Origin: Dinochytrium kinnereticum
Taxonomy: Eukaryota; Chytridiomycota; Chytridiomycetes; Chytridiales; Chytridiaceae
Assembly: GCA_027604005.1 (NCBI GenBank)
Contig: JADGJT010000001.1
Coordinates: 210,171-274,170, forward strand
Reading direction: 5' to 3'
Length of the DNA: 64,000 bases
A program made the translations under genes and the position numbers. Below the pieces are notes generated by a model. The model saw only the letters and a program-made list of their open reading frames with translations, had not been told where the DNA came from and searched no databases. Below are positions 26,199-58,277 of the stretch, one piece after another (positions within the stretch are counted from its first letter, which is position 1; every line of letters starts with the position of its first letter).

Positions 26199-29100
26199 AT
26201 GAGCCCTTTGGACGCATCTCGGGAGTCCCCGGTCATAAGGCGTCGGCCGTCGCAGGCTGCGCCACCAGAGCATCCGGAGGCATATCTTGCTCGTCATGTG
26301 CGGCAAGTCTGCACCATACCACATTACCACGGTTCGTTAGAAGAAGCAAAGGTTGAGGCTTCATCGGAGCCATTTCCATTTTATGTCAAGGATGAGGATG
26401 CAGCTGTGGCCATCATCGATCTTTCAGGTTGATTCTATAACTTCTTGATGATTGTAATAACTTTCCATTGCCTAATATTCTTGATCAAATACAGGATATT
26501 CAAGTTAGTGCGATACTGTTATCTTAAAATTCCTTACTTAGTTCTATTCAGAATTGACGACCATCCTTTCCGAAAGATTGGGAAATACCGGAGCGGGTGC
26601 TGATCGTCTGCGAAACATTATTAACCCCTACTTCGATCGTCTTGTTGAGACCTGCCTAAGCTTTGGTGGAGATATCTTCAAGTTTGCGGTAATTACCTCG
26701 TAAAAAGATATCATGTTAATAATCTGTAGGGAGACTCCATGGTTGTGGCATGGACAGCCGACACATGCAACCCCATCGACCTTCCATTGACGCCATCAGC
26801 ATCAACACCCGATTCTAGATCTCCAATAGCCACCAGTCTGCGTCAGAACTATTCCCCTAGCTGCCGTGCATTTATATGTTGCCTGAACATTATTCAACAA
26901 TTCAATAGCAAAACGAGTCCGCATCCATCTGCAAATCAGGGGACGCAACCCCATCAACCTTCCTTAGTATCTCTATCTCCTAGTGTGATGACTAGATCTC
27001 TCAGCACCGCGGAAGAGTCTGACCTCGCCGCCCTCACGGCAGGCCGCCTCTCTATTCATATTGGACTCGGAGTCGGTTCAGTTTTTCGCATTCACGTAGG
27101 AACGCAAGGGATTCGACGAGAATGCTTTTTGTCTGGAAAAGCTTTGGGAGAAGCGTCCATGTGCTTAGATCTCGCCACAAAGGGCGAGATGTGCGTGCCC
27201 CTGGAGTCTTGGAATGCAATTCTGAAAGCTGAACCGTCCATGCAGAACGCGGTCAAAGGATTGAAGCTGAGAGCTTCAGTCGATGGATCTTCGATGGTAT
27301 TTGATGATAAAGCGGCCACCGCAATGCTGAGACTCTGGTATGATCACCCGGCGCCTCTAAATCTGAGTGGACCTGAATCCTTCAAGCAACGAAAGAGACT
27401 GCCTGGATTTGCGCCGTCGGAGGGTATGGAGTTAGGACCATGGTTTAAGGATTACATCAACGAAGCAACTGCTCATCGACTTTTGGCATCAAGAGGAGAG
27501 GCGCAACCCAACTTAAACACGCTACGGAAGCTATCTGTAGTGTTTTTGAAACTGGAAAAGTTTCCAACGGATGACGCAGAGGAAGGATTGAGAATAGCCC
27601 AGTCAGTTATGGACATAGTGCTACCGCCCCTACGGCAGTTCCAGGGAACAATGAGACAATTTAATGTCGATGACAAAGGCGCTACCGTCTTACTTGTCTG
27701 GGGTTTGTGCTGTTGAAAAGGCTGCTATTAAAATGAGAACTAGGATTACCCCCTTATTCGCATGAGATTGAGGGTGTTCACGCGCTGCAGGCGGCTGTCG
27801 CTATACGCGATGCATGCTCCCCCCTCTTCAGAACTGGGTTTTCGATAGGCGTTACAACAGGCTCTGTGTAAGTATTTTCTGATAATAATGCCTACAGCAT
27901 CTGAACAAATCTGCTTCTTAGGTTTTCAGGCTCGATTGGAAATGATATTCGGAGTGATCATTCTATTTTAGGAAGGGCTGTGAATGAGGTTATTACTTTC
28001 AATATTTTCTTTTGTACTGAAAACCTTACAGGCGGCGCGGCTGATGTGTCATGAATATGCAGTTGGTACCATTCTCTGCGATTCGTCAACATACAATGAA
28101 TCACATGCATCGTTTAAATTCCAATCGAACAGCAAGAAAATTCACATCAAAGGGAGTGACGAGCCCATGGAAGTTTACGTACCCTTAAATCCGCGCCTTG
28201 CCCCTCGAAGCAGTGTTGCCTCGAGTAGCGGAAGCATACGTCGCAGAAACACGTCAGGTCTAAAAGGTTCATCTACCTATCCATCAAAGCCCCCGCCACA
28301 GAAGTCATCATCGGACCTTTCCTTTTCATCATCTGCTTCAGCGAGTTCCTCCGGGTTTAGCACTCCGTATGGCGGGAAACCCTATAGACCACCTCATCTC
28401 TCTCCACAAAATTCAATATTGAGCCCTATCTTTGGCAGTGCGACTCTCTCAAACTTTCCTGAAAGCGAAAGAGATACCTCGACGACTTCAGCGAATTCAA
28501 CTCTTTCAATCATTGGACGAAGTAAAGAGACAGATCAAATATTGGAGTGTATTTCATCTTGGTCTGAAGGGAATATTGGATCCCCAACTCATGTGGGTAG
28601 AAAGATTCTGCTGGTCGGAGAATCGGGACAGGGAAAGACAGCTCTTTGTGATTTTTTTCTGGAGAAAGTGAAGACAATACCGAGAGCAATTGTGTGCTGG
28701 GGCCGTGCGAGTGAGGCAGAGGTAGCGTTGTTTCTTTTTTCCAATATGAAATGCTTACTCGTCATGCAGAGATTCACCCCATACTATTGTTATCGGGGCA
28801 TTTTGAAAAGTTTCACAGAGCAGGTCGATATAGCTGAAGCACCCGCAAACCACCATTCAACGAGCTTTTTAAAAAGTCGAAAGTCTGCCATAGATCACGC
28901 TCCACCGTCCCTCAAGAGTGAAGGCTCCTACTACGGATCTTCTTCCTCAGTAGGATCGAGCTCCCGAAGAATGAGCTTCTCGATTATTGATGCCATCGAA
29001 GGCAAAGCAGAAAGTGATCCCAAACCAGCTATCGATGGGTATGATAATTCCTCAAGACGTCTCTCGAATGGCTCCGAGATAAGTCAAGAGAATTTTAAAA

Positions 29101-32100
29101 ATGCTTCACCGACCGTCGACTCATCGCGGAGAGTGTCTACAGAAGAACGACCACAACTTCAAATATCGATTCAGATTCAGAAATGCGCTGATACTTCAAA
29201 CGAGAATATGTCGGAGATGAAGAAAGGTGTGGATGGAACTGAGTTCTCACTCCCTGAGGGTTTCGCAGAAATTGCTGTTGTACCTGTGAAAGATAATTCT
29301 AAGGGGCGATGGGCTGATTATTGGGAATCTTCCATGGTAGCTCCTCTAGCTATAAGCCCGATAGATGGAGATGCCCAGGATGCAACTTCACCTATGGTGA
29401 AATACCCTTTAAGTCCGCAGCCCAAATCAGTGTTCGGTGATTTTTTCAGTAGCCCTGATCTTTTGGAGACTCAAAACGATCCGGGCACAAACACAAGCGC
29501 CATGCCGAAGACCTCTGAAGAATATCCTAGTGGTGCTGTGAATTCGCATCGAATAGGAAGGAGCGAGCCGCAAAGACTCCCTATAGAAGCCAAATCTTAT
29601 TTGATTCGGAATTCTCTTGCGCTATCACAGCCTACCAAGTCGTCCTCTCTGTCTCGGTCGTGGACCGTTAACTCTGATGACAATTCGCCGGCTGGCTCGG
29701 CTCCGAACGTCCCCGAATCCCTAACCACTTTTACTGAAGGATCGGCAGAACAACCTCCGAACGCTCTCTACTCCACCTCGGATGCAACGCAAGAGTTTGC
29801 ATGGGAAAAAACAAATATTGATGACTTGCAGTTAGCGAGACATTCTATTGGCGTTTCTGCTAATTTGTCCGACACCCAGAAACTTAAAAGTGCAGACTGT
29901 TCTCCGTATAATTCTTTAGAGGATTTACCTGTGAACTTTAAAGAAACGGAAACAACGCTAAAGAGAGTAGTTCTGAAGTTGAGAGAGAATTGGCATGTTC
30001 TTCCTTTATTCAATGATTTGCTCGGGTGCAAGTTTCAGACAAATCAGCTTTTAAAGTCGATGACTGGAGAGAATGCCAGAAGATGCTTGACACGAGCTGT
30101 CGTTTCCCTTATTAATCAGGCGTCCGTTATATTGAAAGCGCCGGTTTGTATTTTATTGGATGATATGCAGGTAAGATTCCATTATCTCGGCATTATCTAA
30201 TTATTCTTTCTCAGTGGCAAGATTCGTTAAGCTGGCAACTAACTATCGAGGTATAGGTTATGTTAGAATTCATGTCTTACTTTTACAGATCATCACAAAC
30301 TGCCCTCATGCTCTAGTGTTTATGAGTTCGCGACCATTACAGGTAAAAAGCTTTGTGTGGACTTTTCAGAATTATTGATATATTTGAAGGAATATGAAAT
30401 TAGCACAAAGAGTTTCTTTGCAGCGGCGCTTCAAAATGATGCATGTAAGATCCTAAATCTGACTTCATTAGACCAGAGTGGAGTTGAGAGTTTTATGATC
30501 GCGATGTTCTCGGATCTAGGCGTTTCACATGTGGATCCATCTCTTGTTGTCGAAGTTCTTCAGAGGTCGAATGGAAACTGCTTTGTACTTGAGACTATCT
30601 GCTCATCGTTAAAGAAGAGCATGGATCCTGGGCCACTTAGAAGTAAAGACGTAGGCGGTACACTGAAGATACGGAATAACGTCGGCCGCAACGAGCTCAT
30701 CATCAAGGACGGAAAGTATCTTACCTTCTCTGGTGGGTCTTCTATCCAAGAGATTCTGGAGGAGTTCTTGCCAGCCGATACGAATTTGGCAATTTTGATT
30801 CAATACGATCGCCTGAGCGCTAAATTTCAGCGACTCTTAGCGGTTGCTTCTTGTATTGGTCAAACATTCACTTTACGGACTTTGTGGACTGTTTGTATTC
30901 GCGATGAAGGGTCACTGGAGCTACTGGGACAGGCGTCCCCAGAATCCATGCGATCACTAATTAAGGCAGAGGACATGTTCAATTTTCTTGTTCCTGCTGG
31001 CGGACGTCGTACTTCAGTGGATAACGTGGGAATTGGCCAGAAAAATGGATATCGCTTTCGACATGTCTTAATTCAGAAGGGTATTTACAATACTCTTCTG
31101 AGTGACGACAAAGAATGCCTTCACGTAGCGATTGCTGATCACTTATCGGAGGACGCTTTAAACGACAACAATTCTACACAAATTCTTCCGTTAGTAATAT
31201 ACCACCTAGAGCATGTTTCTGGATTGGAATCAAGAAAGTTCAAAATCTATCAGCAGCTTTTAAGCACATACCACAGCTCAAGCTCTGTAGTGGAAGGCCT
31301 TGCCACATATCTTAAACTTCATCAGCTGTTGGAAACGAAAAAAATCGAAGTGGACAAGCAGTCCCTTCGGGTTATATACAAAGATGCTGCCGATCTTTAC
31401 TTGTGTGTTCAGGATTATGAGGTTTTAGATTCATATATGCGTCTCGTTCTAATGTTGTTTTTTGGCGTAGGAATCAAAGAAACTGGCCACTATAGCTTTC
31501 GCAAATCTGGGTAAACCAGTGAAGATTGATCAATTTCGAATGATTTCGGAATTGTTTCTCCATATGGGGGTTATGCGGAGGCTAAGCAGTCTTCAAGAAA
31601 CCCCTGGAAGGAGTGCTGGGCTTGAGAATTTGCCCGTACACCCCGACGTCGAATCACTGACGACAGATGAGACCGTGGCTTGGCTTGATCTACTAGATCT
31701 TTTGAACATATGCGGGCAATCCTCAAATAACTGGATTGAAAGAATTACATTGAGCCTCCTGTATGTCAACAGCTCTTCGGCCATAGCATCAAAGCATCCG
31801 ATTAAGTTTGCTATTTGTTTGATGAGCGCATCGAATCTCCTCACGAGCTTTGGAATGGAGGTTATGGCCGCTCAATATTTTAACACTGCGATGATGATTG
31901 GCGGTTTCTCCGATAATTTGAAATACTTGCCACTCCAGCACCGATCGCTTACTGGTAGTCTTACCTCGAACGACTTGAGAAGTGGTGAATATCAGGAAGA
32001 CAAAGAGGACATTGGTTTGAAAATAAGACGGCTGGCCTCAGGATCTTCTATTTCATACGATGAAGAGAGGCTCCTAACAGAAGCACTGAATGTTCTGTCA

Positions 32101-33297
32101 GGACTAGGTTACTATGATGCTGCTGCTTCTATATCGTATCAAATACGTGCTTCTATCGAAGCAAAATCAGCAGAAGGATGCTGGATGTACATAAATGCCT
32201 ACAGAGTTGAATGTCGGGCGAGGTTATTGGCTGGACCAATTACTTCGTATCGGATGCTTGCAGTGAGATTCTTGAACGTTGCGAGGGAAGTGCAAACTCT
32301 TCGCAAGTCCTTTGCCGAACCCTGTGCAATTGTGCATCAGCTTTTGGGGGATATTCTTTGTGGGGACCTCGCGGCCGCAGCGGTATCATCCGTTCATGCT
32401 AATCGTTATCTGACGAGGATGGAGGAATGCAAGGGTAGGAATTTCGTAAGTTTTTCGCATCAAATAACGACTGAACTCAGGAGAATATAAATCGGCCGCC
32501 TTAAAGCTATCTCACTTGGAAGTCCTTAACGCCTTAAGAATTGCTCTTTTGTTGTTTTCATTGTGGGCAGGGACTACGGAGGAAGTTAATAGCATTACCC
32601 ATAGATTCGTTCAAAGCTTCACAGAAGATTTACCAAAAGGTTGCTTAACCTTTGTTTTTACCTGATGCTAATCAGAACTTTTGTAGATAATGACGGACTC
32701 ACGACATTCAGGTAATTAAGAAAAGAGGTTCCATATCTGATTTAAAATAGCATCGTTATCATGACTATCGCCTTCGATGCCTGGGCTGACCGTTTAAGCT
32801 CCGATATGGTCCAGAATATTGCAGCTGAGAAGGCCAGCCTTTCTAAATTGGCCTCACTGATAAAGCAATCATTCAGAACCACTTCCAGCAAGGAGCGCGA
32901 AATGATTCAAGTCTGCAAGGACGCAATTAAATCCATCGTTCTCTTTATTCAAGGCGAAACTTTTCAGGCGGCGAATCTGCTAAAAAAGGTGTTGCACTGT
33001 AATCGCAAGCAGCTTTCGCATGCTGTCATGCTTGCCGGAATTCTGCATGCCCGATACGCGAAAATAGCGATGGCTGCTCACTTGGTGAAAGTGGAAGACA
33101 ACCCGCTGAGCGTGGACTCTTTATGGAGCATTGCGACCCGGATATGGAATGTGGGTATTGGATGGACTCGATTGCATCACAACGACGAGTGGGAGGTTGA
33201 AGCCCGCTCCCACGCGCTGAAGGCAAGGCAGATGCTAACCGAATGCAATGCTCAGTCGCTTCTTGCGCGCTTCACCGCGTCCGTGTCTGTTGAATAA
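26199..33297 (+). CDS. ADCY10-like (soluble) adenylyl cyclase, copy A
   Basis: Fifteen exons: 26199-26427, 26495-26503, 26552-26688, 26730-27702, 27744-27867, 27922-27988, 28032-28721, 28770-30170, 30215-30250, 30289-30342, 30390-31421, 31471-32434, 32481-32639, 32687-32711, 32751-33297; about 2148 residues. The first class III cyclase domain carries both metal Asp residues, D74 (AIIDLSGYSKL) and D127 (GGDIFKFAGDSMVVAW). The second has RKLSVVFLKL, FNVDDKGATVLLVWG, FSIGVTTGSVFSGSIGND and the transition-state pair N512/R516 (VNEAARL). A P-loop NTPase follows: Walker A GESGQGKT at 709-716 and Walker B-like ILLDD near 1207. A Ser-rich insertion (~760-1150) lies between them. The helical C-terminus is TPR-like. 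The order matches mammalian ADCY10, which makes cAMP and responds to bicarbonate and calcium; such regulation here is inference. Confidence 0.9.
26495..26503 (+). other. Nine-nucleotide micro-exon in cyclase A
   Basis: Exon 2 of the cyclase A model. It supplies GA TAT TCA A, completing Gly and giving Tyr-Ser plus the first base of Lys, so that DLSG joins to YSKLTTILSERLG. Flanking signals are ACAG before and GTTAGT after. Without it the conserved D-x-S-G-[YF]-[ST]-K-L segment cannot be formed in frame; with it the segment matches copy B (DISGYTKLT). Confidence 0.75.
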
Positions 33298-33301
33298 TAA
33301 A
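33296..33301 (+). terminator. AATAAA polyadenylation signal overlapping the cyclase A stop
   Basis: The canonical AATAAA hexamer starts inside the TAA stop codon of cyclase A, and only about 140 bp separate it from the lipase ATG. It may be the cleavage/polyadenylation signal for a very short 3' UTR. Confidence 0.4.
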
Positions 33302-33440
33302 GCGCGTCCCTTGAGAGTTGAGTTGCTTGAGGATGGATGGTGTGGGTTGGCTCCTGTGAAACTCTTTTTGTAAACGTGACAATCGATTCCAGTTCAGGTT
33401 TTGGAGGTCACCCGCTTGGCCCTATGAATTGCGAGCGCAC

Positions 33441-34696
33441 ATGTTCCGTCTCATCGCCTTGATAGCCGGATGCCTGGCCCTTGGGTGCGGAAAGATGGTC
33501 TGTGATGGCGCCCAGCAGATTCTCCTGAGTCCGCTCTCAGACACGCTGCCGGAAGACCCGCTGCCACCCACCACCATCCCTGTCCCGCGGAAGGACGTCA
33601 ATAAGATTAAGGTGAGCTGATGGAGGTGGCTGCTTTGATCTGAATGGCGTTGCTTTTGTTCGTCAAGTTTGGGTGGGTTCCCTACGCCCAGTCCGCTTAC
33701 TGCATTGATGGCCTTCCTGAGTGGAAGTGCACGACTTGTGGGGGAGACACCCTGGGAGCCGAGAATATCACTTTATTTGGAGACTTTCAGGTCAGCGTTT
33801 TTGGGTATGTCTTGCTCTTTCTTCCGTGTCCATTTTCCGCTCCTCTTGAATTGCTTGGCTCTGATGGGCCCTTTTGTTCATTTAGATATGTCGCCATTAA
33901 CCATCGGCGGTCGCATATCGTGGTCGCTTTCCGAGGGTCGAGGAATATGGATAACTGGATTGATGACCTCTTAATAGCCAAACCCGACTGCCCTTTTCCA
34001 GGAGCACCGGAGGGTGCCAAAATTCATCTCGGGTTTTTAAATGCATGGAACCTCGTTCGAGAAGATGTGGTGATGAACGTGCAGCGATTTGTCGAGTTAT
34101 ACCCTGCATATGAAGTCTGGTTCACGGGGCACAGCCTTGGAGGAGGTATGTGTTCAAAACGGTTGCTTTGACCCACCGTTAGCTTTGGCAACTCTGGCCG
34201 CTGTGGACTTGAGGCAAACACTCGATGAAGCCCTGGTGAGAAACACAATATTTTGATTGTCATGTGTGGACTCATACTCTGCGTTATCGGAAAACAGCCA
34301 TCTTTCCGGATCAAGCTGTTGACGTTCGGCCAACCTCGCGTTGGAAACGGCAAATGGGCTGAATGGGTTGATTCTCTCTCCTTTGACTACTCTATGCGAG
34401 TTGTCAACCAAGACGATCTGACTCCTCATCTTCCTCCCTCTTTTGCTGGGTTCAAGCACTGCCCAGACGAGGTCTGGATTGCCGATGAAAATGGCACCAC
34501 GCTGCTCTGTTCGGACGATATCGGAGATTTTGACAGCCAGAAATTGAACACGCCGGCGAATCGCTACAACATAATTGAGCTCGAGGAGAACAGGGACTGT
34601 GCGAATCGTATCAAGTGGAGGTATAATGTTTCCAGGCATGCGTGGGTCTGGCAGATGCAGATTGGCATCAAAGCGTGTAATGGCTCCACTTTCTAA
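33441..34696 (+). CDS. Secreted class 3 lipase
   Basis: Triacylglycerol/phospholipid hydrolase of the fungal lipase_3 (Rhizomucor-type) family. Five exons (33441-33611, 33668-33804, 33886-34145, 34183-34235, 34298-34696) give about 339 residues. An N-terminal signal peptide (FRLIALIAGCLALG) is followed by a propeptide-like stretch. Core motifs: HIVVAFRGSRN (oxyanion strand), WIDDLL, the nucleophile elbow FTGHSLGGA (the Ser codon lies in exon 3 and the box is completed across the intron), LLTFGQPRVGN, the acid residue in VVNQDDLTPHLPP and a late His (VSRHAWVW) as the likely third triad member. The ATG at 33441 is preferred because the upstream extension has no ATG in frame. It lies 143 bp after cyclase A on the same strand. 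Confidence 0.92.
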
Positions 34697-34725
34697 AGGG
34701 CGACTTGATGGGGAAGTTGAAGGGC

Positions 34726-34731
34726 AATAAA
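34726..34731 (+). terminator. AATAAA polyadenylation signal after the lipase gene
   Basis: Canonical AATAAA about 30 bp after the lipase stop codon and before the next gene's start at 34852. Confidence 0.45.
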
Positions 34732-34851
34732 AACCAAACCACTCGAATGTGACGTCTGGCAGCTTCCCTTCACATTAATATCGCTTTTATTTTTATTTTT
34801 AAGTGCTGAAAGGTTGCCTTTTGACTTTCAAAATTTTGGAAACTTCTACAA

Positions 34852-35575
34852 ATGGCCCCTCCACTTCAAACCGCACTCATCTCCTTTGTACGTTCCAACG
34901 CCATGCAACAGGCCGATGTTCAGACTGACACATTCCTCTGTCGCTCACGCAGCTGCTCGGCATTCTCTTTCTAGATGCCAGTTTGGGGACCTACCAGCTC
35001 TTCCCTTTCCTGGTTTCTGGATTTCAGGACCCAACCATCCTTAGAAGCAAGATTCCTTCCTCTGTTCGAGGCGAGATTCTGGTAAGCCTTCTACCCTCTC
35101 TATATCATCTAATGGGGTTGAATTTGAAGACCCTTCACAAGACCATCTTCAGCTCCTTACCTATGTAAGTCGGGAAACTCCCCCACCATCTTTCCTGTCT
35201 AACATAACAATGAACAGCTGGGCCCCCGCCACCATAGCCGTTGTCTATGTCCTTCTTCTTATAACATCGCTTCTGAACACTGCAATCGACTCTGGTCGCC
35301 GTGCCGTCCACATCTTCACCATGATTCTGTCTCTTGCGGCGGCGGCTCCTATTGCTGTTCGCGTCATTCCTGGACCTGCTATGACTCTTGTGAAGGGACG
35401 TACCGCTCGGTTGTCGGCGGCAATGGAGCCTGTTGCTTTGTATGATATTGGATTGGCTGTTGGTGTTGCCAGTGCTTGTCTTGGGGTTGCGTTTTTGATG
35501 AATTTGGTGGATGGTGGAGAGGTGGCGGACGCGCCGAAGGAGGATAAGAAGAAGAAGGTCAAGAAGACTGAGTAA
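34852..35575 (+). CDS. Small multi-pass membrane protein with C-terminal dilysine (KKxx) signal
   Basis: Four exons (34852-34887, 34953-35081, 35130-35164, 35218-35575) give about 185 residues. Hydrophobic stretches suggest four membrane segments: LLGILFLDASLGTYQLFPFL, IAVVYVLLLITSLL, IFTMILSLAAAAPIAV and GLAVGVASACLGVAFLM. The cytosolic tail is strongly basic and ends K-K-T-E, a K(-3)K(-4) COPI retrieval signal, so it probably resides in the ER. Splice junctions are all consensus and keep frame. I do not recognise the family with confidence; size, four-span layout and ER signal are reminiscent of Shr3-type permease chaperones, but the sequence match is weak. Confidence 0.75.
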
Positions 35576-35757: not shown

Positions 35758-38739
35758 TTAAATATCGACCGTGAGGTCAACCACCTTGAACTTGTTCTTG
35801 GCCTTTCCATCATTTCGCAGCCCAGCCATGTAATTCACACGCCTCGGAACGTTTGTGGATGATTCTGTGGTAGTCTGCGTGGCTTGCAACCTACGCATCA
35901 GAGAAAGAGGAAGCAAAAGAAAGTTAAGTAAAAGGTGAATTCACTCAAACAACACGAAAACCGTACTTTGGCGCGTAATGCTGTGTCTCGCTTTCCCGAC
36001 GAAAGTGGCTGAGAGCTGTTTGAGAGGAATGTGTTTTCTTGGTCTTGAGATTCACCTATTTAAATAATTTGGTTTTTTCAGTTCCTTTGCTGGTGGTAAT
36101 GAGAGGTAAAATATAGCTTACGAGCATCAACGCCTGACGACGGAGTTCCCACTCATTCCATTGGTACTTTGAATCCATTTTATTGTCGTTGATGTGAGTG
36201 TCAACCTGGGTTCCAGCCTCCGAGACCATCGGCATCTGACCTAACAGCCTCTGACGAGTAAATGATTTCGCCTAAATTTGATGAGCATCAATCGCACATG
36301 CTCAAACCCACATTTTCCAGTGCATCGACGGTGGGAAAGTAACTATAAAGGTGAAGAAGTTGAACGAGGTCGGGCATTTTTTTGGCCATCTCCAATACAC
36401 CTTCCATGTATCTGCATTGATTTAGTTTGGCGTTTTGGGTTTCGCTAACTGCTGCCCTTACCGGTCTGGGTACTTTGAAAACTCTCGCGCTGCTTCGGAA
36501 TTTGAGAATGCGAAGAGCCTGTCTCGGTATCTTAGCAATCCCAAATTTTTGTCGCCGGGCGTGACGACACCGTCTCTTCGAATTAATGTGTATGGGCAGA
36601 ATCCCTAAAAAACAGTTAGACCCTATCACATAGTAATGATGTTATGAGCTTACGCCGTATTCAACTGGGAGTTTAAAATACTGAGTGGTGTTCCCGGGAT
36701 GAATAACCTCCACAGTTTTGTTGATTATAGCGACTGCTGCCATCAGCTCTGATGCCTTCATGATGATATCCGCCTCTTTTTGGAGGGAGTTTGGTGTTGG
36801 TATTTCATGTCGAAAGAGACGAGGTAGATGCATGTTAAAACTAACCTGGAAGAATTTCCGGCTCAATTTCCTTCCTGAACGGTGCAGCAGATTCAACAAC
36901 ATCTTCAGAAATGGTGACTTCAAAGCACTAATGAAAATGTTAACTCTCGAATCCTTCCATCACAACCTTTGATTGGTAATCGATCGTGTCCAATATTCCT
37001 CTTCTAAAGGCAATAAAGAAAAGCTCGTCCATCCATTTCGTCCAGAGATTTGAGAGCGCGATGAATTGAGGCTATTTATTGGATATTTAATATGTTCGTT
37101 TTTTTTTTTTTTTTATCCCTTTCTGGTTAGTCTTCTGGAATTTGAGTGATTGTGAGCTTACATAAACTTGGTCCACAGGAACAGCAGTTTTGGCTTTGCA
37201 AGTTGATTTAAGGTCCCGAATTATTTCGTCAAAGTTTTCTCCTAGTTTTGATAGTGACTGGCGGGTCCTCTCCAGTTGTTCCTATCTATTATTAGATTTG
37301 ATGTGAAACCAACTTCTGAGAACCTGCAAGGCATCCAGGTACATCAAATACTGCCTTTTGAAGACAAGTGTGGATCTGACTCGCTCCAGCAAGGAGTTGT
37401 TAAGTTTGGGATTAACACTCTTCGCCGCTGAATCAAGAGTGGCTATTCAAAAAGATGTCAGATGTGGGCTTCACTTTAAACATCAAACCTAGATACAGCT
37501 GAATGTCGTCCTCAGTCTTTGCAGTCTGAATCCCAACCTCTGATGTCAATTCCTGTAATTCACTTGCGCATAGTTCGATGACTAAATGGATCATTTAACA
37601 GACAAAAACTTTATGATGAAAAAGGTTCACCATCATCAACTGCTTCACCGCCTTTCCCTAGTTGCTTGTTGAAAAGCCGGATACCAGTTACCAGTTGAGA
37701 TAGACCGTTTAGCTGGGCCTCCTTTTCGCCCCGTGAAAGTGAAATGAATGCTGAAAGTTCACTTTGGGGGAAGACCGATTCGAGGGCGGCTTTGATTTGA
37801 AGGAATATGAATGGATTGAGATTCGTTGATGAAAATACCAGTTGCCTCTCGGATAATGCGAATATCGGTTGGACTGCCGACGTAGCTCTTTAGAAGGATG
37901 TATGAGACTATTTTTCGATATAAGACTGTTTGTTTTTTTTTTTTGATTTTTTTTTGAGGAGGATGAATTGAGAAGTTTAAAAAGAAAAATAAGAATACTG
38001 GTGTGAAAAGTGAGGAACAAAAAAAGTGAGAACAAAAACCTTCATAGACAGCCACATTCTTTGTCTTGATCTCTGTGATTTCACGGAGAACTCCTGAACA
38101 AGATGCAATGCGGGACATCTTCTCGCGGTGAAGATAGTCGGCTTTCTCATGGGGTCAGTTATCAAATAACTGGAAAGAAGTAGGCCAAACCTTGAGCCGG
38201 GAAAGTTGTATCAAAGTAAACCTGCATTTTTACGGTTTCCATCACTGGGGAGTTGAGCTCTGTAATTTTCTCCACACACATCTGCAATGATTAACGACTC
38301 ATTTAATATCCTATTCACTTGAACTTTCATCATCCTATGAACTTACTGAGATAAGCCTCTGAACCTCCTCCTTTGAAAGCTCCCGCTCAATCCTGAAGTC
38401 ATTGCGGGGGTCAAGAACAACTGCCCTGACCACGAATGCCGCCAATGTATCCGACACAGTGTATGGTGTATGATGACTCTTTATTCCAGCAGCAAACAAA
38501 TGCTTCACCTGCGGTAACGGCGTCATGGGTGGAACAGGTGGGAGACTCGAGTCATCCCCTACTGCCTGCCTTAACGCCTCACCAGCAGCAGCACCCCCCT
38601 GATCATGGACATGATCCCCTGATTCAACCTTTGCCGGCAGCGGTGGAAGTGACGTTCTCCTCTTCTTCAGGATCCCCGTCGACTGGGCGACGATGTCGCG
38701 GATGATGTGTCGGATGATGTCCTCGCTGCTGGCTGACAT
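35758..38739 (-). CDS. CFAP206: CFAP206, axonemal radial-spoke-associated protein
   Basis: Cilia- and flagella-associated protein 206, needed at the base of radial spoke 2 in motile axonemes. Sixteen exons (38739-38347, 38281-38191, 38141-38040, 37925-37839, 37789-37631, 37581-37489, 37442-37324, 37281-37162, 37071-36967, 36927-36846, 36775-36654, 36604-36462, 36411-36312, 36271-36122, 36055-35962, 35882-35758) give about 694 residues. Recognisable segments in order: IIRHIIRDI, LAAFVVRAVVLDPRNDF, VKMQVYFD, RKIVSYILLKSYVGSPTDI, REATGALESVFPQSEL, LVTGIRLFN..GKGGEAVDD, KAKTAVPVDQV, FIALSNLWT, GFCPYTLIRRDGVVTPGD, YQWNEWELRRQAL, QTALSHFRRESETQ and the C-terminal VPRRVNYMAGLRND. The length is close to the animal protein (just over 600). 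Its presence implies a motile flagellum, as in zoospores. A few donors are non-canonical after GT (GTTGTG, GTTCTC). Confidence 0.93.
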
Positions 38740-49100: not shown

Positions 49101-49476
49101 ATCATGCTAACGGCATTTAAATGAAAAACAACAGCCTGGTTCTATCAATACTTCGTTTGGTGGAATGCCTTTTGTCCCTGCTACTTCCCGCAATCCCAAC
49201 CTTCCCCCCGGAACTGACGGCATCACCTCTTCTATCACTAGCGGTCGCCGACCTTCCCTTGGCCTTCTGAACATTGGGGCGTTTGGTATGACTGGAAACA
49301 CATCCAACGGCCTTCTCGACATCCACCTACCATCCCCTATCTCTACCCAGAAAGCTCTTCCTCCTATTGCCAATGACCATGCAGGATTTGAGTTTAAGGA
49401 CTCTATTGGCGGGTCACAGGACACGCTTTATTCCGAGATTGATTTTGATAGGAGGATAGCAGAGATTTCTCTTTAA
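46117..49476 (+). CDS. PH-domain protein with four KA-x-[KR]-x-MG-[IL] motifs
   Basis: Two exons (46117-49065 and 49135-49476) give about 1096 residues. The middle is largely disordered, with a predicted helical stretch around PELMSRLDVFAVEMEGIITE and a coiled-coil-like QDQLEKEIRNEEHR. A PH domain sits at ~866-983: MQGYLQKHNPGKMFRAWKRR, FFVLVPSKSRLFYFAS, IPMDLRTDV, and a closing GAWMNALVEVIM with the conserved Trp. A 113-residue tail follows. Four short motifs of the form K-A-x-[KR]-x-M-G-[IL] occur at residues ~515, 595, 650 and 778, always preceded by Ser/Lys-rich sequence. This suggests a scaffold with repeated docking sites and one lipid-binding domain. The start is the first ATG (46117). 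Confidence 0.8.
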
Positions 49477-49832
49477 CGCTCATTTTGGCTCTTTTTCAGT
49501 GCCTTTTTCGATCCCCGATTCCTTTCATTTAAATTATTATTGTTTTTCTCCTTTGAAGTTTTACCCCCATCTGAAAGAGCAAAAAAAGAAAAACATATAT
49601 GGTGTGTCATCACGGTTATCATTTTTTTCGCCGAGTTTTTTCTCTCTTTTTTCTTTTCCTTGAGTTCCCCTTTCCAGTCGTCTGTCTATTCACCCAATCA
49701 TTCGCCTCACGATCTCCCCTCCACAAAAAGTACAATATTCAAAAAACACCGGTTTTTGTGAATGTTATAAAAGAAGGAATCTATGGTTTATCTATTTATC
49801 ATAGCAAACATAAGGAAACACAGTCTTTTAAA
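49477..49832. other. Convergent 3' intergenic region
   Basis: About 350 bp of AT-rich sequence between the stops of the plus-strand PH-domain gene and the minus-strand DHHC gene. Nothing else is seen. Confidence 0.4.
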
Positions 49833-51722
49833 TTAACCAGACTTGATAAACTTGGGACCGTTAGCATCTCCCGAAACTTCTTCAGCGACATGCAGCGTAA
49901 CCGCATCCACGTTCTCCGTCCTTCCTGCCATCAATTCTTCTTCAATCTGAAAAACAAGTTGTGGAGGCGGCGGCACCCGGCTGCCAGCTGATAAGAATTC
50001 AGAGGAGTGGGAAGGGGGGGTGTAGGTGAGAAGGAGGGAGGATTCCAAAGGGCGGCAGAGAACCCAGCTAGCATTCGCCAGTCGTGAACCTTTCCAGAAA
50101 GGGTGGGGGCGGACTCTAGGGCCATTGGAGGAGACTTCAGGTTCGTCATAGTAGTATTTGCGTTTAAGCTAGTCATTTATCAAAGAAAAGAGCAGCGAAG
50201 GGTCAGCCAAAGAGAAAAAAAAAGGCTGTCACTAGGATCGTTTAGTTCCTTACGTGCTCATGAGTAGTAAGGTTGTTCATAGTCAACCATACGTGGAATG
50301 GAGTCATAGCAAGGAAGCTGATTGCGAGTAAGGTCGTAAATACTTGAATAGTGACAAGTAGAGGCTGCGCTGAAAGTGTGTCCACCCAGGAAGTGTTGTC
50401 CAGGTCCGAGCGCTGCTTTGCCAATATGGAAATGTGCGCCAAAGTGCTGGACCAAACAAAAATGTCGAGTAGGGAAACATAGATAAGGAAAGCTAGGAAG
50501 TGGCGGTAGTTTCTTTTCCCAATGCAGTTTGCCTGTACAAACCGTTAGCCAGCTTTCAAGAAAACAAAAGGAAAGCTAGAAAAGTCCTCACCATCCAAGG
50601 ACAATGATGGTCATGGTTCTCGACGCACCGATCGCAAGTTGCGCAATGGGAGGTGCGAGGGGGCCTCCATATTCTACAGGTATGGCAGTACTTTATCTTG
50701 ACAACAACACCATTGATCTCAACCTTGCCGATACCAGGTAGAACTGGTCGAATAACATTCGTGATTGGCTGTTCTGATCCAGACTGTCCATATCCATCGT
50801 TTAATGTGGGGGCGATGAACGGATAGCCCCTTGGTAAAGGCTGCTCTTCCATCGATTCAGGTGCGTTTGCTGGTGACTGTCCTTCGGATTGTATGTAGGG
50901 GGGGAAAGCTTGCATCTGGTTATTCACCATGCAGGTTTCACCGTCCACCGTCCATTCCTGACTGGGTCTCATTGGTGCTGAATTTGCTGGAGCTAGAGGT
51001 GGCATACTCTTTAAACTCATTAGGCCACATTACGCCAAATCATACAATAAAGAAGTCAGCATACCCTCTGGTAGGCATCCAGTGCCGAGGCTGGGCCGGC
51101 ATGGGTTGGATCCAGATGCAGGTCCACAGGAAGATATCCAGGATCTGTGAGAGTGGTTTTGAAAAGATGCGCCAGCGTATTCAGGAATAGGTAGACGAAC
51201 GAAATCGGCACAAGCACAGACGATCTCTGGGTCAGAAACGGCACTCTGATTCCGATGGATTAAAACAAAGGCAGAACCAAAGCAGATGGGCCATCCTTAC
51301 GTCAGAATAGCATGCGCCGTTGAAACTCCAACGATCAGGCCCACAGCAGACAAAAAGACTATTGAGTCTCTTCTACTGAAGAACCACTTCCAGAATGCCG
51401 CTGGCCCCTTGTTTCCTCCTCGAAATGGAATCAGAGGCTTTGCATTCCTTCGCTGTCCAGATGGAGGGAAGGCGGACGGTTGTCGTTGCACATTCAGCAG
51501 TGGTCTTGCTGAAATTACGGATGGTGTGTGATGGCTTGCAATCGTCGCAGTTGTGTTGATGGTCGTTATTGAAGGCGCAAGAGGGGGTGGGTGCGCCTCT
51601 CTCTGCATTTTTGGACAGTCTTTTTTTGCACCACACCAAAACGCTAGCAAGTGGTCGTGATGGAAACACGAAAAGCAAGAGCTGAGGTCCTTAACTTCAC
51701 GCAAGAAGGAAGACACGACCAT
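49833..51722 (-). CDS. DHHC protein S-palmitoyltransferase (Erf2-like)
   Basis: Attaches palmitate to cysteines of membrane proteins. Five exons (51722-51301, 51245-51065, 51008-50592, 50532-50254, 50168-49833) give about 544 residues. Four membrane segments are apparent, two before the catalytic domain ([37 protein letters not shown]) and two after it. The cysteine-rich domain reads [32 protein letters not shown], and continues across intron 3 as [11 protein letters not shown]; the DHHC is at ~334-337. After the last membrane segment, TTHEHLKRKYYY fits the TTxE motif region. The N-terminal extension carries Cys/His-rich sequence ([12 protein letters not shown]). The start codon lies only 36 bp beyond the stop of cyclase B on the same strand. 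Confidence 0.93.
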
Positions 51723-51758
51723 TATCTTCTGCCTTTACGGCTCACGGTGGTTGCCCTT

Positions 51759-54700
51759 TTATTTTGATATGTCGGCAATAATCTGTGCTTCAAAAATCAA
51801 CCCATGTCCGCGCAGCTGTTCCATCAACTTCTCTGGAGACATGAACTCTTCAGGGAAGGTAGCCACTCTCGACTTGCGAGTCCTCTTGGTACTTATAAAA
51901 TGCGGGCTACCTTCCTGCAGGGAGATTATGAACAAGTGCGAATGCCTAGCTTGGACGCGTCTTGCCCTGAAGGCACGTGCCATCAATTGCATAATGTGGT
52001 TCTCTGCCGAAGATACAAAAGTGTACATACGCTTGAAACGATCCAATTCTATGAGGAGCTTCTCGGAGAATCGTGTAAGACTACCGTCGCATAGCGTCAT
52101 AATGATCCCTGCCATTGCTTGAAAGTAGCGAGTGAAGTGGGGACGCTTAGGGTAAATTAAGCCAGATTGCTTCTGAATAAGCATGCAGGCCGTGCGGACC
52201 TCCTTCACAATCTGAAACGTCAAGTTTTTTTCAGCAGCGTCTTCAATATCTTTGGGTGTCGAAGGTTTGACGATTTCTGCGTAGTCCCCGGTTGCAAAGT
52301 CGATTTGATCCAAAAGGACTTCACATAATATTGGAAAGCACTTCATATATAGTGGTCCAGTGTGGGCGTACTTAATAAAAAAGATATCAAAATCGCTGCG
52401 CAAATTATGAAGTAATGAATAGTGAAGATACCCGTCAAGAAACTGACCTGAAACAAGCCAAGCCTCTCCATCCCATGAATTGCAAAACGCAAAGACGAAA
52501 TTATCTTTTCAGCCCACCCCCGTCGAGTCTCGGCGTTTTCAGATGAATAGTGCTTGAAAGATTCATAACGCAACTGATTAAGGGCTGAATAGAATGATAT
52601 CCATCCATTCTCTAGAGGATGACCCTACTCAAAAAAGTTCAGAACTCATTTGTGGAGGCTAGCTTTTAGTTCACCTCTAATTTCCTTGAGGATTTTACAC
52701 CGTCAGTATACATAATCTTAGCTAGCTCAAGGTCTCCAGTTGTTGATCTAAGGCCTGCTAGCAAGAGCTTTATCGTAGATACGTCAAGGCTATCATCCTG
52801 ACCGGCGTAATACTCTAAGAACTTCTCCTCGATCTGGTATCGAAGGATCGATAAATCTCCAACTCTAAGAAAAAAGGATTTTTACAAAAGGAATTTAAAA
52901 GGAGATGTGATTAGAACGAAGCGAAATGCCCTTACAGCTCCCGAACCACAGCATCCACAACTCGGCTTAAGTGAGGAATGGGAGAAGCACCGTCTCCAAC
53001 AGAATCCATAGACGACAAATGAACCTTATAAAACGATATGCATTTCTCCCATTCGCCTCTGGAGTCATATAGAATTGCTCTAGTTTCGGCATACCGGCAC
53101 AAATCCATGATTTCACTATAGGTTTCATGATAAGTTGGAAGATAGACTGCTGCAACTTCATGTATCCTATCGCTTGCCTTCCCAAAGCCAAGCACGTCAA
53201 GACAATTTCCTGCTCTCCCGAACTGCATGCATAGAGATGACTTGTCAGCCATCCGTATCAAGTGTGCTATTAGAAGTAATGCAGATATTAGTGGCACATC
53301 GAGGCTTGCCTGGCCGTGGTAGCAAACGTAGAGACCAGTTTCCATCATCTCAGTAAGCTCCTCCAGGAAGCTTTGAAATTTTGCCATCTCCTTCGCGACT
53401 CTTTGACCATTTGCATCCGTCGATTGCGGAAAATTCATCTTTGTTATGGATTTGCCAGTCTGATGCTTCATTTGCCGAAAAGTGCGCCGAATAAGTGCTT
53501 TGTCAAAAGTTCGAAATGCTGCTGGGAATGTTTTCGACGCGAGGTCAAAAGAGCGAATAATTCGTCGTCGTTCAGTATTTTTTGCCAGAGATAGTGAAAA
53601 TAAACAGTATCTTAGGGCGGTGTATATAAGCTTTGGCATTTCTTTATGAGGGTTCGGGAACCGAAAACCAAACAATTTCATCGCTAGCCTGAAATAGTCC
53701 AACGCCTTATTCAGTTCTCTGCATTTGTAATTAGAAATATTCCTCTCAGTTATCTTACTTGTTTTCAAAATACATTTGCGAGAGAAGACGGTATTCTCGG
53801 GCTTGTTCAATTAAAGTCTTCTTCTCAAGATCCGGAGATATTAACAGGAATTCATTGTAAAGGTTGAAATATTCCATGGCCTCCAGGCTTCTTCTTTTCT
53901 CTACTGATACTTTAAAGGCCTCGTAGAGGTATATTTTCTTTCTTTCTTCTTCGTTCGGCACTTTTAAAAGATGGTTGATGATGGCTGTTACGTTATCCTT
54001 TCGATTCTCATCCGTCAAAGTGGATTCATAGTACTCGGCGTAATGGTGATGAAGCTCCTCCCTTCTGCTTGGTACCAGACTGGAGTAAATCCCTTGCTGA
54101 ATCAGGTAATGAGAGAAGAGAAATCGATTCTCATGGTTATTCCAATGAATTAAGTCATACGGATCCGACTCTTTCAATAGCTGACGCATTTCATCTGTGG
54201 ATATCGTATCCGAAAGAATAGATTCCGTTGATTGAAGAACATAGTGTACTTCCTCGACGTGAAAGTATTGACCAGCTACCGATGCGATCCTCAAAATTGT
54301 TTTCATATTTGAAGATAACTTATCAAACCTAAGTGACCAGTTAGTATGTAATATTCGCTGCAGAATGCTTACTGAGCGATAACCGCACTTGTCGAGTCGA
54401 GAGGGAGAACTGTAGCGGTAAGATCCTTTCCTCCTCTTCTGAATAAAACGCCTCCATCCAGTATGATAGTTTCATCCTGCAGAAGAATACCGCAGATAAT
54501 CTTAACGACCAGTGGATTTCCTGAAAATAAGAAGTTAGACTAGCAATAAATTGATGCCAAAAAAAAAAAGCTGCAATCTGCTTACCTTGGCTTTTTTCAA
54601 ATACTTCATTCAAAAGAGAAGGGGCCACTTTATCGCCTACCCCCATCACGTGTGAGAATCTATTCTTGATAATTTCTCCGACAGCATCTCCATCTAGCTT

Positions 54701-57700
54701 ATCGACAACAATTTTCACACAAAATCGAGATTCTTCGATTTGGTTGAAGCGAGAGCGAAGGGTGTCTTTATACTCCTGAAAGATAAAAATCAACAGGAGT
54801 TAAGTATATAACCATAATAGCAAAACAATTGAATAATCATTTTAAGTAAACATAGACTGAACCTCAAGCGGTCTAGATAGAAAAAACGGAAGCAAGAAAG
54901 GACATCGATTTCCTAACTCAATTGCAATGTCGTAGGATCCAGAATCAAACCACTGGACGTCGTCTAGTATAAAAACGGTTCGTAATCCCAGCTTATATAA
55001 CGTTTGAAGGATGCGAGATATGTAGGATAATAGTCGTGGACCAACGTCTTGAGCAGGGGCTACAGTAATATGTGTGAATCGTCCAAACAATCTCGGAAAA
55101 AGGTTGCGCAGCTAATGGAGGTTGAATTGCGATACATGTTAACCATCTTTTAATGTATAGGTATACCGAAATGGAAATAACGAGACGAAAGCTCACCAAC
55201 TCAATGGTGGAGAGAGGTTCTCCAAGCGCCAATAAAACTTCACTTAAGGGATCCTCTCCAGCTATAGAGGCCGTCCGCTGCCTCGCCAAAATATCACAGC
55301 TCTCAATCTTCTGGAGGACAACACTTGGCTCGATGTTAATTGATCCTCTTATCCCCATTGCCATGCTTCTTCTACCCCCCAAAGTTCTCTCATAAGTTGT
55401 TATTAAGCTAGAAATGTTGGTCTGTGAATGAATATCTCCAGTAGATACATGGGACGGGCTAGAAAAGACGGCACGACGTCCCTTACGGATGCGATGCGTG
55501 GACCAGCCATTGGCAGTGAGGTGGTTGGAGATAGCTTCGATAATGTATTCAAATATAAAGAATGCGGCTTGACGATTTTCTTGACCTGATGCAAAACTTT
55601 GGAGGTTTAGAAGCGATGACAAAAGAATCGTTCTTTTAGAAAAGGCTTACCAAGTAATCACTGAAGGATCGTCCTTAAAGGTCTGTATTATGTTGCGCAC
55701 CAAGAATGTCTTTCCTGAACCAGATTTGCCGATGATCAATATTGATACCCTTTCACCTTGATACCATTTCTGAATTGCGTCGGATACAATGCCTGCTTCA
55801 TTTGTACGCCCAGAAAGAGTCTGTCCGGGAGCCGTTTGTGACCCTAACTTGCTACCATCCGCATTATCCATACTATGGCCGTTATTATCCGTCGGCGAGG
55901 TCAATACGTTTTGGATTCTGAGCGGCTCATGCACTTGAACGTCTTGTTGAACGCCTTTAACGGAGTTATGGTTGTGTTTTTAGGGAAATCGAGCATAGAG
56001 ACAAATAGATCAAGGTCAAACGTAATCAAATGGGGTACAGTATCCAACCTTTTAGAGTCAAATACGAATAGTTTGAATTAAAAAGGAAATCATCCGAGCA
56101 TTCTTTAAAAGTTTCCGAGTCACATAGAATCTTTGACTGGCATACTTTTTGGCACATTATTCGAGCTGCGAGATTCACACAGGGTCCAAGAAGGGTGCCA
56201 TCCCCACGAAGCTCATTTCCAATGACTCCTGCGAAACTGTAGATGTTTCAAAGAATTAAATAGAGAATACCCAGTAGATAGTAAGAATGACACCAAAGCA
56301 AAAGGTTGATTGCAAGGACTAATAATGAAATCATTAAAACGTCAAATAAGGCTAGGGAAGAACGAGTAGCAATCAATTCGCCAAAATTGATAAATACACT
56401 TGTCCCGTCGCAACCCCAATTGAGAAGGTGCCTCCAAAGATCTGAAAAAGTCGTTGCTGGATCTCCAGAGCCGCCGAGATTGCATGTCTAGCCTCCCCTT
56501 TCTCATGAGCAAACCCCTCTAAGCCCCATACGAGAAGCGCGCACAAACCCTTCTCATCGCAATTCAGCTGCCTGCAGCATCCTCCATGTCTTCTTACACT
56601 TGTCGTGACGGCTTCCATAAAAGCTTGAAGTTGGGGAAGGTTGGAATCCGCCCCTATGTCTTTTAGGGGTAAGGCTTGTATTTGGATAAAAACGATGGAC
56701 ACTCGGCGGAGTTGATTGTAATCGTCTAGCTGGATGCAAAAAAGGGCATCATCTTGAGGTACTTCAATCTACAAGAATTTAAATTTCATAAATGACAGTA
56801 ATAAGAAGTTATTAAAAGTACACACCTGAGCGACCTGCGCATCGGATTTCCTTCTGCGAGTCGTTTTTTTCCTTAAAGGAGACGAATTGTCTAGACTTTT
56901 AATCACATTTTTTACCTCTTGCCCGTTCATGGATGTGGTTCTCATAGGCTCCCTTGACGTGGAGGATGATCTTGCAATACCATTTAGCGCTGACGAGATA
57001 AAGGCATGCAAACTCTCATCCATAAAGGCCAACGCCTTCCTACAAGCCTCAAAACTGACTGTAGAAGGAGGCATCGAGCCTTCCCTCGTCAGCCAATCCC
57101 GAGAAGATTCCGGCGCGTTTGTTAAAGCGGTCGCAGTGCGGACTAAGTCAATAACGGTTTCGAAATCGTCTTTGATAACAAAGGAATTTGTCTGAGAGTT
57201 TTCGTGCATTAGCTTGGAAAGTGTCGGGGATTTAAGAAGAATCTTTTCGAGATAATAATGAGCGTGCCCTGGGAATGCTAGCTCTCCGGTTTTACCGAGC
57301 CCCAACATATCGCCGGCTTCTTGTACTGCTAGACCTGCTACGAATTGCTCAACACGGTCGTTAACAATAGAGTTCCGAACAGATAGGGGTTCGCTTTCGC
57401 TCTCATAGATGACACTAGGGAGAGCTGATGATGTATTTCCGGATTCCTGCTCTTTGTTCCCGAGAAAAATATGGCGAAACGATCCCAGTCCTATTCCAAT
57501 ATGAATCCGGAGGGTTTGGTCTTCTGCTAGATGTGTGTGATGAGGGCTGGAGACCTCGCTTTTCCTTGGATTTTCTCCAGCTACGCTGCGTCGAGTTATG
57601 GTGTTGCCACGACCGATTTCTGCACATTGGTTCCAATTCGAATGAAGAATATCAACACCAGCTGAGGTCCGTCTATTCGTGATCCCATCTTTTGACAAGG

Positions 57701-58277
57701 TTGCAAAGGCGTTATTGGGATCATTAGAGTCTCCTCCAGCTCTTCCACTCATAAGCATGGTTCCAGCCCAACGCTCGGGAATGACCAATTTATAGTTTTC
57801 GAAGAGGCACATAAGCTCACAGCAGCATAGAATGCATTGAACGAAAAGATCGTCGATCACGGGCTCTGATTTCTCCGCTACTTCGTCTTCCACTAGATGA
57901 GTCAAATGCTTGTTGATGACAGGAGGCGGCGTCCATATTGCTAGGACGCTATCTCCTGCGAATTTGATGATGGATCCTCCGCATTTATGGATAGTCCTGA
58001 TAATCAGCTCGAAAGGTGGGTTTAGAATCTCTCGAATACGTTCACTAGTTCCCATCCGAGCCAGAGAGTCAGTCAGTTTCGTATATCCTGTCAAAGAGAG
58101 TGGCATAAGTGTATACTGACGCGATTTATAAATTGAAAGAGAAAGCGCCTTACCCGAAATATCAACGATGGCAACGACGCCTGACGGAATATCTTCCTTC
58201 AGGGGGAGCTTATGGATATATTTTTCACCCAACACGCTAAGTCTTGCGCGGTGCGTGAGCAAACTCAGCGGATGCAT
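51759..58277 (-). CDS. ADCY10-like (soluble) adenylyl cyclase, copy B
   Basis: Fourteen exons: 58277-58154, 58087-56826, 56768-56398, 56236-56049, 55954-55651, 55596-55197, 55111-54863, 54775-54586, 54520-54373, 54328-53759, 53718-52936, 52864-52675, 52624-52448, 52370-51759; about 1855 residues. The first cyclase domain has D39 (VAIVDISGYTKLT) and D87 (IIKFAGDSVLAIW). The second has RRVSIVFIQI, NCDEKGLCALLVWG, FSIGVATGQV, then N607/R611 (CVNLAARI). Walker A is GKSGSGKT at 724-731 and Walker B ILDDVQWFDS near 933. A long helical tail follows (YSSLVPSRREELHHHYAEYY and on). All four catalytic positions are kept. It is a paralogue of the plus-strand copy at 26199-33297 and shares intron positions with it. 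The acceptor before the last exon (TTAAG) was chosen because the nearer one breaks frame. Confidence 0.9.

Follow-up and report, generated by a model that had tools for sequence, protein, structure and literature searches.

Accounts of cyclic AMP (cAMP) signalling in fungi are mostly based on yeasts and their one cyclase, Cyr1, and Cyr1-type fungal cyclases consist of leucine-rich repeats (LRR), a PP2C domain and one class III cyclase domain. In human soluble adenylyl cyclase (sAC, ADCY10), Arg176 pairs with Asp99 and bicarbonate frees the aspartate (as described in PMC12250328); neutralising either Lys95 or Arg176 greatly lowers both the catalytic activity and the bicarbonate response (as given in PMC12867704). 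According to the same text of PMC12867704, alkaline pH activates the sea urchin sAC, which keeps Lys95 and has Asn at position 176, whereas bicarbonate does not. That text proposes pH activation widely for non-mammalian metazoans, and it describes non-mammalian sACs as being, with few exceptions, without Lys95, Arg176 or both; the two-residue genotype is not family-wide. The word stem "fung" is absent from it. Here we describe a stretch of 64,000 nucleotides, called the window below, from the chytrid Dinochytrium kinnereticum (Chytridiomycota, order Chytridiales; C1:210171-274170 of a 22.4-Mb assembly in 558 contigs). It contains two ADCY10-like genes, which we call A and B. Our view is that both probably encode catalytically able ATP cyclases of the sAC family that would respond directly to pH and would not be switched by bicarbonate.

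Two genes of the soluble adenylyl cyclase family

Reading of the DNA, with GT-AG introns joined, gave an open spliced frame for each gene. Gene A (26199..33297, + strand) has 15 exons (26199-26427, 26495-26503, 26552-26688, 26730-27702, 27744-27867, 27922-27988, 28032-28721, 28770-30170, 30215-30250, 30289-30342, 30390-31421, 31471-32434, 32481-32639, 32687-32711 and 32751-33297) and encodes 2148 amino acids; a 9-base micro-exon completes its DLSGYSKL motif. Gene B (51759..58277, - strand) has 14 exons (58154-58277, 56826-58087, 56398-56768, 56049-56236, 55651-55954, 55197-55596, 54863-55111, 54586-54775, 54373-54520, 53759-54328, 52936-53718, 52675-52864, 52448-52624 and 51759-52370, the last intron being uncertain) and encodes 1855 amino acids. 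An initial annotation, made from the letters of the DNA, had put cyclase genes at these coordinates, each with two cyclase domains (C1 and C2), a P-loop ATPase and a long tail, and this layout is present in both translated models.

In A, the C1 domain (26394..27254, +) carries the metal-binding aspartates D74 and D127 together with K123, and has H235 and S268 at the positions of human Lys144 and Arg176. Its C2 domain (27510..28187, +) carries K441, N512 and R516, with S505 at the position of human Thr405, and the Walker A stretch of an AAA_16-type ATPase (GESGQGKT) lies at 28605..28697 (+; Pfam AAA_16, 2.8e-10). The corresponding parts of B are a C1 domain at 57222..58187 (-) with D39, K83, D87, H237 (human Lys144) and G300 (human Arg176), a C2 domain at 55935..56729 (-) with K535, T600, N607 and R611, and a Walker A stretch (GKSGSGKT) at 55665..55763 (-; Pfam AAA_16, 1.3e-9). 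The catalytic residues are intact in both genes, and in the spliced models the residues listed in the initial annotation (D74/D127, D39/D87, N512/R516 and N607/R611) all have the numbers given there. Three intron positions, with their phases, are common to A and B (inside DxSG^Y, in GxV^F and in SRPL[Q/E]^EY), and the two proteins are 41% identical in C2.

We assign A and B to the ADCY10 (sAC) family by several comparisons. By phmmer, the best match of the C1-C2 region in the PDB is human ADCY10 both for A (5.7e-34; the next kind of protein, 2.3e-9) and for B (1.1e-22; next kind, 3.8e-9). AAA_16 is above the Pfam cut-off in both proteins, and the class III cyclase family PF00211 is slightly below it in both (20.5 bits in A and 15.8 in B, against 21.9). 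Neither LRR nor PP2C was found in A or B in a Pfam scan with E up to 1, which bears out the statement that they are not of the Cyr1 type. Fold evidence comes from a B orthologue alone, P0003 of Chytridium lagenaria, whose AlphaFold model has a mean pLDDT of 67.9 with cyclase cores mostly at 80-94. The top 24 matches in a fold search with it are human sAC entries (E from 7e-25 to 1e-20, TM by target 0.73-0.78), at 16-18% sequence identity to human sAC in the fold alignments; the next kind is a membrane cyclase (7e-14). The nearest relatives of A are in Blyttiomyces, Quaeritorhiza, Zopfochytrium and Chytridiales JEL 0842, and those of B in Phlyctochytrium and Chytridium. Three protein searches seeded by A, B and relatives scored about 8,000 candidates each, so family counts for other organisms are lower bounds, and no animal ADCY10 was among the returns of these searches.

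In the public record, B is represented by P0001 (HDU67_000084, "hypothetical protein"; 98% identity over the whole query). Over the part compared, residues 1-1658, it agrees with our model apart from two introns: it retains the first intron (in-frame, 66 bases), which interrupts the DISGYTKL motif, and it splices one intron near the C terminus differently. Gene A seems to be mis-modelled. The sole Dinochytrium protein returned by the protein search with A is HDU67_000072 (P0022, 1635 amino acids, with a BTB domain; window 19773-26700, +), in which the upstream BTB gene runs into A and is fused to its start, taking its first 125 residues.

A family of 29 loci in three clades

Searching the genome with A, B and then with paralogues from clades II and III (defined below), we found 29 ADCY10-like loci in total, A and B included. 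The initial annotation's description of two paralogues near each other therefore understates the case: A and B are two of these 29, the loci fall into three old clades, and a sister grouping of A with B is rejected (AU p 2.9e-5 by the approximately unbiased test on the 73-row C2 tree). Both A and B have closer relatives in other genera than in each other. We found this large expansion described nowhere; the sAC family itself is already known.

All trees were made in IQ-TREE under LG+C20 with posterior mean site frequencies (PMSF): two of C2 with outgroups (64 and 73 rows) and one of C1+C2 without outgroups (63 rows). The fungal rows, together with the single further row P0040, form one clade in all of them, with support of 96/97 (64-row C2), 97/94 (73-row C2) and 99/97 (C1+C2). 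Within it, clade I consists of locus C81 with Blastocladiella, Allomyces and P0040 (100/100 in the C1+C2 tree, as for the values that follow), clade II of Mortierellaceae and the Dinochytrium expansion (100/99), and clade III of A, B, their orthologues and the Spizellomyces and Rhizophlyctis types (100/99). The Allomyces proteins P0044 and P0046 are not among the tree rows. Clade I has one Dinochytrium member (C81); clade II has 20 (C156a, C156b, C175, C158, C73, C417a, C417b, C416, C3, C93, C83, C392, C341, C97, C382, C205, C396, C34, C137 and C6) and clade III has eight (A, B, C48, C218, C280, C337, C544a and C544b). Placement is by trees for 27 of the 29. The other two lie at contig ends: C417b, a C1 domain only, was assigned to clade II from the query that found it and from its neighbour, and C544b to clade III because it resembles C544a and C337.

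The 64-row tree left out Dk_C544b and Phlycto_plan_2. From the 73-row tree we left out rows shorter than 95 residues (Dk_C544b, Dk_C417b, Phlycto_bull, JEL0842 and out_HAMP) and, by choice, the long-branched bac_P0028. From the C1+C2 tree, Dk_C544b, Dk_C6, Phlycto_plan_2, P0048, Dk_C158 and Dk_C417b were left out for length, and the outgroups, P0032, P0056, JEL0842, Phlycto_bull, bac_P0057 and bac_KSB1 by choice.

The position of the fungal clade relative to human ADCY10 is less firm. In the 73-row C2 tree, a branch with support of 87/92 separates the fungal, human and stramenopile rows and several further rows from 14 bacterial or outgroup rows, and constraining 57 rows of the sAC side to one clade gives an AU p of 0.057 (bac_P0028 left out). 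Two observations speak against a clean split: bac_P0028 groups with the sAC rows in the 64-row C2 and C1+C2 trees, and in the C1+C2 tree the human row is nearer to the bacterial rows. Both human ADCY10 and bac_P0028 are on long branches, and we are unsure of their places. A phylogeny had been suggested as a check on the family assignment: A and B are not placed outside the ADCY10 clade, though the join to the human protein is moderate (87/92) and its place in the C1+C2 tree is unsure.

Gene models and search sensitivity both affect how this family is seen. An exon-by-exon search with PF00211 finds only 1 of the 29 loci (C156a). Unguided gene models lost exons, so we used profile-guided models; for the first 16 further loci, unguided models show the motifs as well, and the later 11 are represented by guided models only. 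The ATPase and tail were examined for A and B, and the paralogues are represented by C1-C2 pieces. Allelic copies or haplotypes were considered as a source of inflated counts and rejected for the first 16 further loci, DNA matches between pieces of which are only 68-84% identical. Besides C156, 14 more contigs in the genome carry PF00211 class III cyclase loci; these have no tblastn match at 1e-4 to A, B or 13 relatives, except for C2-type matches at C86 and C357.

The nearness of A and B, to which the initial annotation had attached meaning, needs no explanation, because random scatter of 29 loci gives 1.16 expected pairs within 32,079 bases, with at least one pair in 70% of draws. This calculation treats the genome as one unbroken piece, and fragmentation lowers the expected number. 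We rejected a meaningful A-B cluster on both the chance calculation and the tree. There are three close same-contig pairs: C156a/b, C544a/b and C417a/b.

Active-site residues and predicted regulation

We compared residue columns across the family in human sAC numbering, a column being unread where the fetched or modelled piece ended. Among the 29 Dinochytrium loci, the catalytic positions are almost invariant: Asp at D47 in 24/24 read and at D99 in 27/27, Lys at K334 in 27 of 28 (the exception is Ser in C341), Asn at N412 in 24 of 25 (Val in C6), and Arg at R416 in 26/26. The adenine contact Thr405 is more variable (Ser in A, Thr in B; among 26 read, Ser 8, Gly 8, Thr 4, Ala 4 and Asn 2). Lys334 is kept, which argues for ATP over GTP as the predicted substrate.

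The residues of the mammalian bicarbonate switch have a different pattern. Lys is kept at K95 in 25 of the 27 loci read (Arg in C83 and C341), including A (K123) and B (K83). At R176, 27 of the 28 loci read have a neutral residue (Gly 18, Ser 5, Phe 2, Ala 1, Asn 1) and one, C416, has Lys. The switch arginine is gone from both A (Ser268) and B (Gly300), contrary to the bicarbonate response that the initial annotation implied. Among the 20 other named fungal rows, 18 were read at this position: 14 neutral, three acidic (Mortierellaceae) and one Arg in Zopfochytrium, which lies within an Ala/Arg-rich run of a deposited model that looks misread. These active-site changes suggest that A and B would not sense bicarbonate in the mammalian manner. 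Because Arg176 is lost while Lys95 is kept, as in sea urchin sAC, we expect A and B to be pH-responsive and not bicarbonate-switched; nearly all Dinochytrium loci share the sea urchin genotype, and direct pH control is therefore the leading interpretation for them.

A further feature is at the position of human Lys144, which is listed as the pyrophosphate (PPi) receptor in Table 1 of PMC12867704. This column is His in 28 of the 29 Dinochytrium loci–including A (H235) and B (H237)–and Asn in C341; the His is also present in unguided models of the first 16 paralogue loci. It is His in all 17 rows read among the 20 other fungal rows (Quaeritorhiza, JEL 0842 and P. bullatum are unread). The 14 further rows, of other or unstated origin, have His in four (P0040, Ectocarpus, Phytophthora and P0050), Lys in six (human, P0024, P0027, P0030, P0043 and P0048), Arg in P0041 and P0047 and Cys in P0056, with P0032 unread. 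In 12 bacterial rows we found Lys or Arg in seven, Ser or Thr in four, and His in bac_KSB1, a reading that depends on the alignment (Arg in one, His in another); the four outgroup rows have Arg (2) and Gly (2). By these alignments the His is not strictly fungal, and His versus other residues corresponds to five changes on the 73-row C2 tree, which excludes that column. We met no published mention of this His, no literature search having been aimed at the residue. It is a candidate titratable group.

In the mechanism we propose, C1 would provide the two metal-binding aspartates and C2 the Lys, Asn and Arg, jointly forming one active site that converts ATP to cAMP. The AAA_16-type ATPase and long tail that follow C2 presumably regulate or anchor the enzyme. 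The second, degenerate site, without Arg176 but with Lys95, would give a direct response to pH in addition to inputs through the ATPase and tail, and the His at the Lys144 position may be a titratable group in that response. The family, the layout, the residues, the expansion and the tree are observed; activity of A and B, ATP specificity, the missing bicarbonate response, pH control and any role in zoospores are what we infer from them.

Several points weigh against this interpretation. Given the loss of activity when Lys95 or Arg176 is neutralised in human sAC, the missing Arg could also mean a weak enzyme. At the Thr405 position A has Ser, and only 4 of the 26 loci read have Thr. Judging by these columns, not all family members are enzymes: C6 is without the catalytic Asn, and C341 (L057, C341:6400-9300) looks like a dead, decayed sAC paralogue, with no Asp in the first motif, loss of DDKG and no Asn or Arg seen in its model (its D47, N412 and R416 columns are unreadable in the alignment). 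Control by pH would be an extrapolation from one enzyme tested with this genotype. Sea urchin and salmon sACs retain Lys144, so pH sensing can do without the His, whose effect on activity as pH rises may be of either sign. An SLC9C1-like fusion, considered as a pH partner, was not found either: no contig has both PF00999 (Na+/H+ exchanger) and PF00027 (cyclic-nucleotide-binding) exons, though an exon-wise search is weak evidence of absence.

Four other readings have to be set beside pH-responsive ATP cyclases. If A and B were STAND-like signalling ATPases whose cyclase part is vestigial or a mere nucleotide sensor, it would be natural that AAA_16 outscores the cyclase family in both, that C341 has lost several catalytic positions, and that C6 and three Mortierellaceae rows have Val for Asn; but A, B and nearly all paralogues retain, wherever read, the two metal-binding Asp residues together with Lys, Asn and Arg, which is unexpected for a vestige, and we regard this reading as unlikely. 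We also think it rather improbable that A and B sense bicarbonate like mammalian sAC, with another residue replacing Arg176. Such replacement might be seen in C416, which has Lys at the Arg176 position–a two-Lys genotype is reported in insects (in the text of PMC12867704)–and Lys95 is kept in A and B. Nevertheless, A has Ser at this position and B has Gly, 27 of the 28 loci read have a neutral residue there, and swapping either residue in human sAC cuts bicarbonate sensitivity greatly (as given in PMC12867704).

The product could instead be cGMP, feeding a zoospore cGMP pathway, as with Dictyostelium sGC, which is related to sAC and makes cGMP. Thr405 is not fixed among the loci, cGMP steers Blastocladiella zoospores (as described in PMC9616733), and fungal zoospores orient to light by means of rhodopsin guanylyl cyclases (as described in PMC12264004). 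We consider cGMP synthesis very unlikely, however, given that the adenine-reading Lys334 is kept in 27 of 28 loci read and that fungal rhodopsin guanylyl cyclases use Glu as a base-reading residue (same text). A derivation of the fungal family from bacterial AAA_16/TPR cyclases, and not from an early eukaryotic sAC, seems to us a poor prospect. The searches also matched bacterial proteins with this layout, P0028 falls among the sAC rows in two trees (64-row C2 and C1+C2), several rows near human (P0041, P0043 and P0047) are of unstated source, and human is on a long branch; but the single fungal clade (97/94 in C2, 99/97 in C1+C2) includes Blastocladiomycota and Mortierellaceae and excludes the named bacterial rows, and 14 bacterial or outgroup rows lie beyond the 87/92 branch (with P0028 left out).

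Beyond the interpretation of A and B as pH-responsive cyclases, a broader proposal can be offered tentatively: zoosporic fungi may have inherited an ancient sAC branch that evolved separately, with Lys144 changed to His, no bicarbonate switch and direct gating by pH, and multiplied in this species into an intracellular sensor array of about 29 genes, overlooked by family searches since most copies escape the Pfam cyclase model.

The sAC family also occurs in Mortierellaceae (clade II copies), fungi that are not known to have flagella. In all three of their rows (P0021, P0025 and P0026), Val stands in place of the catalytic Asn, and the residue at the Arg176 position is acidic. The Val would fit a history in which catalysis was lost once the flagellum had gone; as the three rows are related, they represent one event.

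Genomic neighbours and comparison with known cyclases

The host is a zoosporic fungus, as the initial annotation had supposed, and the flagellar gene it mentioned is present: CFAP206 (FAP206) matches at 36461..37443 (-; partial extent; PF12018, 3.3e-15 and 8.3e-9, six-frame match). The meaning drawn from it is not supported, and we rejected it as evidence of a flagellar role: CFAP206 is a neighbour only. A term search of the main text of a fungal flagellar protein atlas (PMC13358043) found no ADCY10, adenylate or adenylyl cyclase, or CFAP206. Directly downstream of A is a class 3 lipase gene (33644-34171, +; PF01764, 1.2e-17), and B adjoins a TFIIB-repeat gene of the TFIIB/BRF family (60553-61521, -; PF00382, 7.7e-25).

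About 10 kb upstream of A there is a Myb gene (window 14877-16382, +) that also matches a SWIRM-associated domain below threshold (SWI3/RSC8-like). A single deposited protein of Chytridiales JEL 0842 (P0016) joins SWIRM, Myb, a polysaccharide deacetylase and an A-type sAC, hinting that a SWIRM/Myb-sAC neighbourhood is conserved between it and Dinochytrium. Contig C337 has a match to a Na+/H+ exchanger at 9128-10306, some 7 kb away from its sAC locus (C337:17245-18956). Only about 0.1 exchanger-sAC pairs within 8 kb are expected (from five exchanger contigs and 29 loci), so the arrangement is suggestive of a possible pH-linked pair and is a lead only. Elsewhere, C287:23607-25593 (-) may encode a multi-domain cyclic-nucleotide receptor: four matches to cyclic-nucleotide-binding domains lie there within 2 kb, one being below the cut-off.

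These results lower the importance of the A-B pair and raise that of the family. The sAC family is known; what appears to be new, from the residue comparisons, is a fungal form without Arg176 and with His at the Lys144 position. If its members are active, the animal sperm enzyme would be one twig of an older and wider eukaryotic family, and bicarbonate sensing a special case. The near-invariant His would be a single-residue, testable handle on the pH response. In a zoosporic fungal genome, an sAC family can evidently stay hidden when its members score below the usual domain cut-off and when gene models are wrong.

Dinochytrium has both Cyr1-type and sAC-type cyclases, the former alongside about 29 animal-type soluble cyclases. 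Its Cyr1-type gene is on contig C63 (L014, ~5300-9900, -), with LRR, PP2C and class III domain in that order; a search for Cyr1 with the Ad_cyc_g-alpha family gave no match, but the control was silent too, so this is uninformative. The Cyr1-type cyclase is class III like A and B but has another architecture. Chytrid proteins named "Adenylate cyclase type 10" by the annotators of their records (in Phlyctochytrium, Blyttiomyces and Rhizophlyctis) are orthologues or close relatives of A and B, the highest identity to B being 51% (P0002), and no study of fungal ADCY10-like genes was among the literature matches listed, which in several cases were only the top few. Bacterial class III/AAA_16/TPR proteins (such as P0006, P0029 and P0051) resemble A and B in having a cyclase and AAA_16 in one chain, but the bacterial AAA_16 cyclases fall opposite the fungal and human rows in the 73-row C2 tree (P0028 is the exception, in the other trees). 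Two further proteins, P0024 and P0030, combine an sAC-type cyclase, AAA_16 and a PF00233 cyclic-nucleotide phosphodiesterase in one chain, that is, synthesis with breakdown.

The sAC of the sea urchin Arbacia punctulata shares Lys95 and a neutral residue at 176 with A and B, and differs in being an animal enzyme that keeps Lys144 (its Lys166); its pH response was measured, whereas that of A and B is predicted (sea urchin data as given in PMC12867704). Human ADCY10 resembles A and B in its tandem C1-C2 domains, the metal Asp pair in C1 and the Lys, Asn and Arg in C2. It also has a P-loop ATPase and a long tail. It differs from them at three positions that matter here: it has Arg176 (Ser268 in A, Gly300 in B), Lys144 (H235 in A, H237 in B) and Thr405 (Ser in A).

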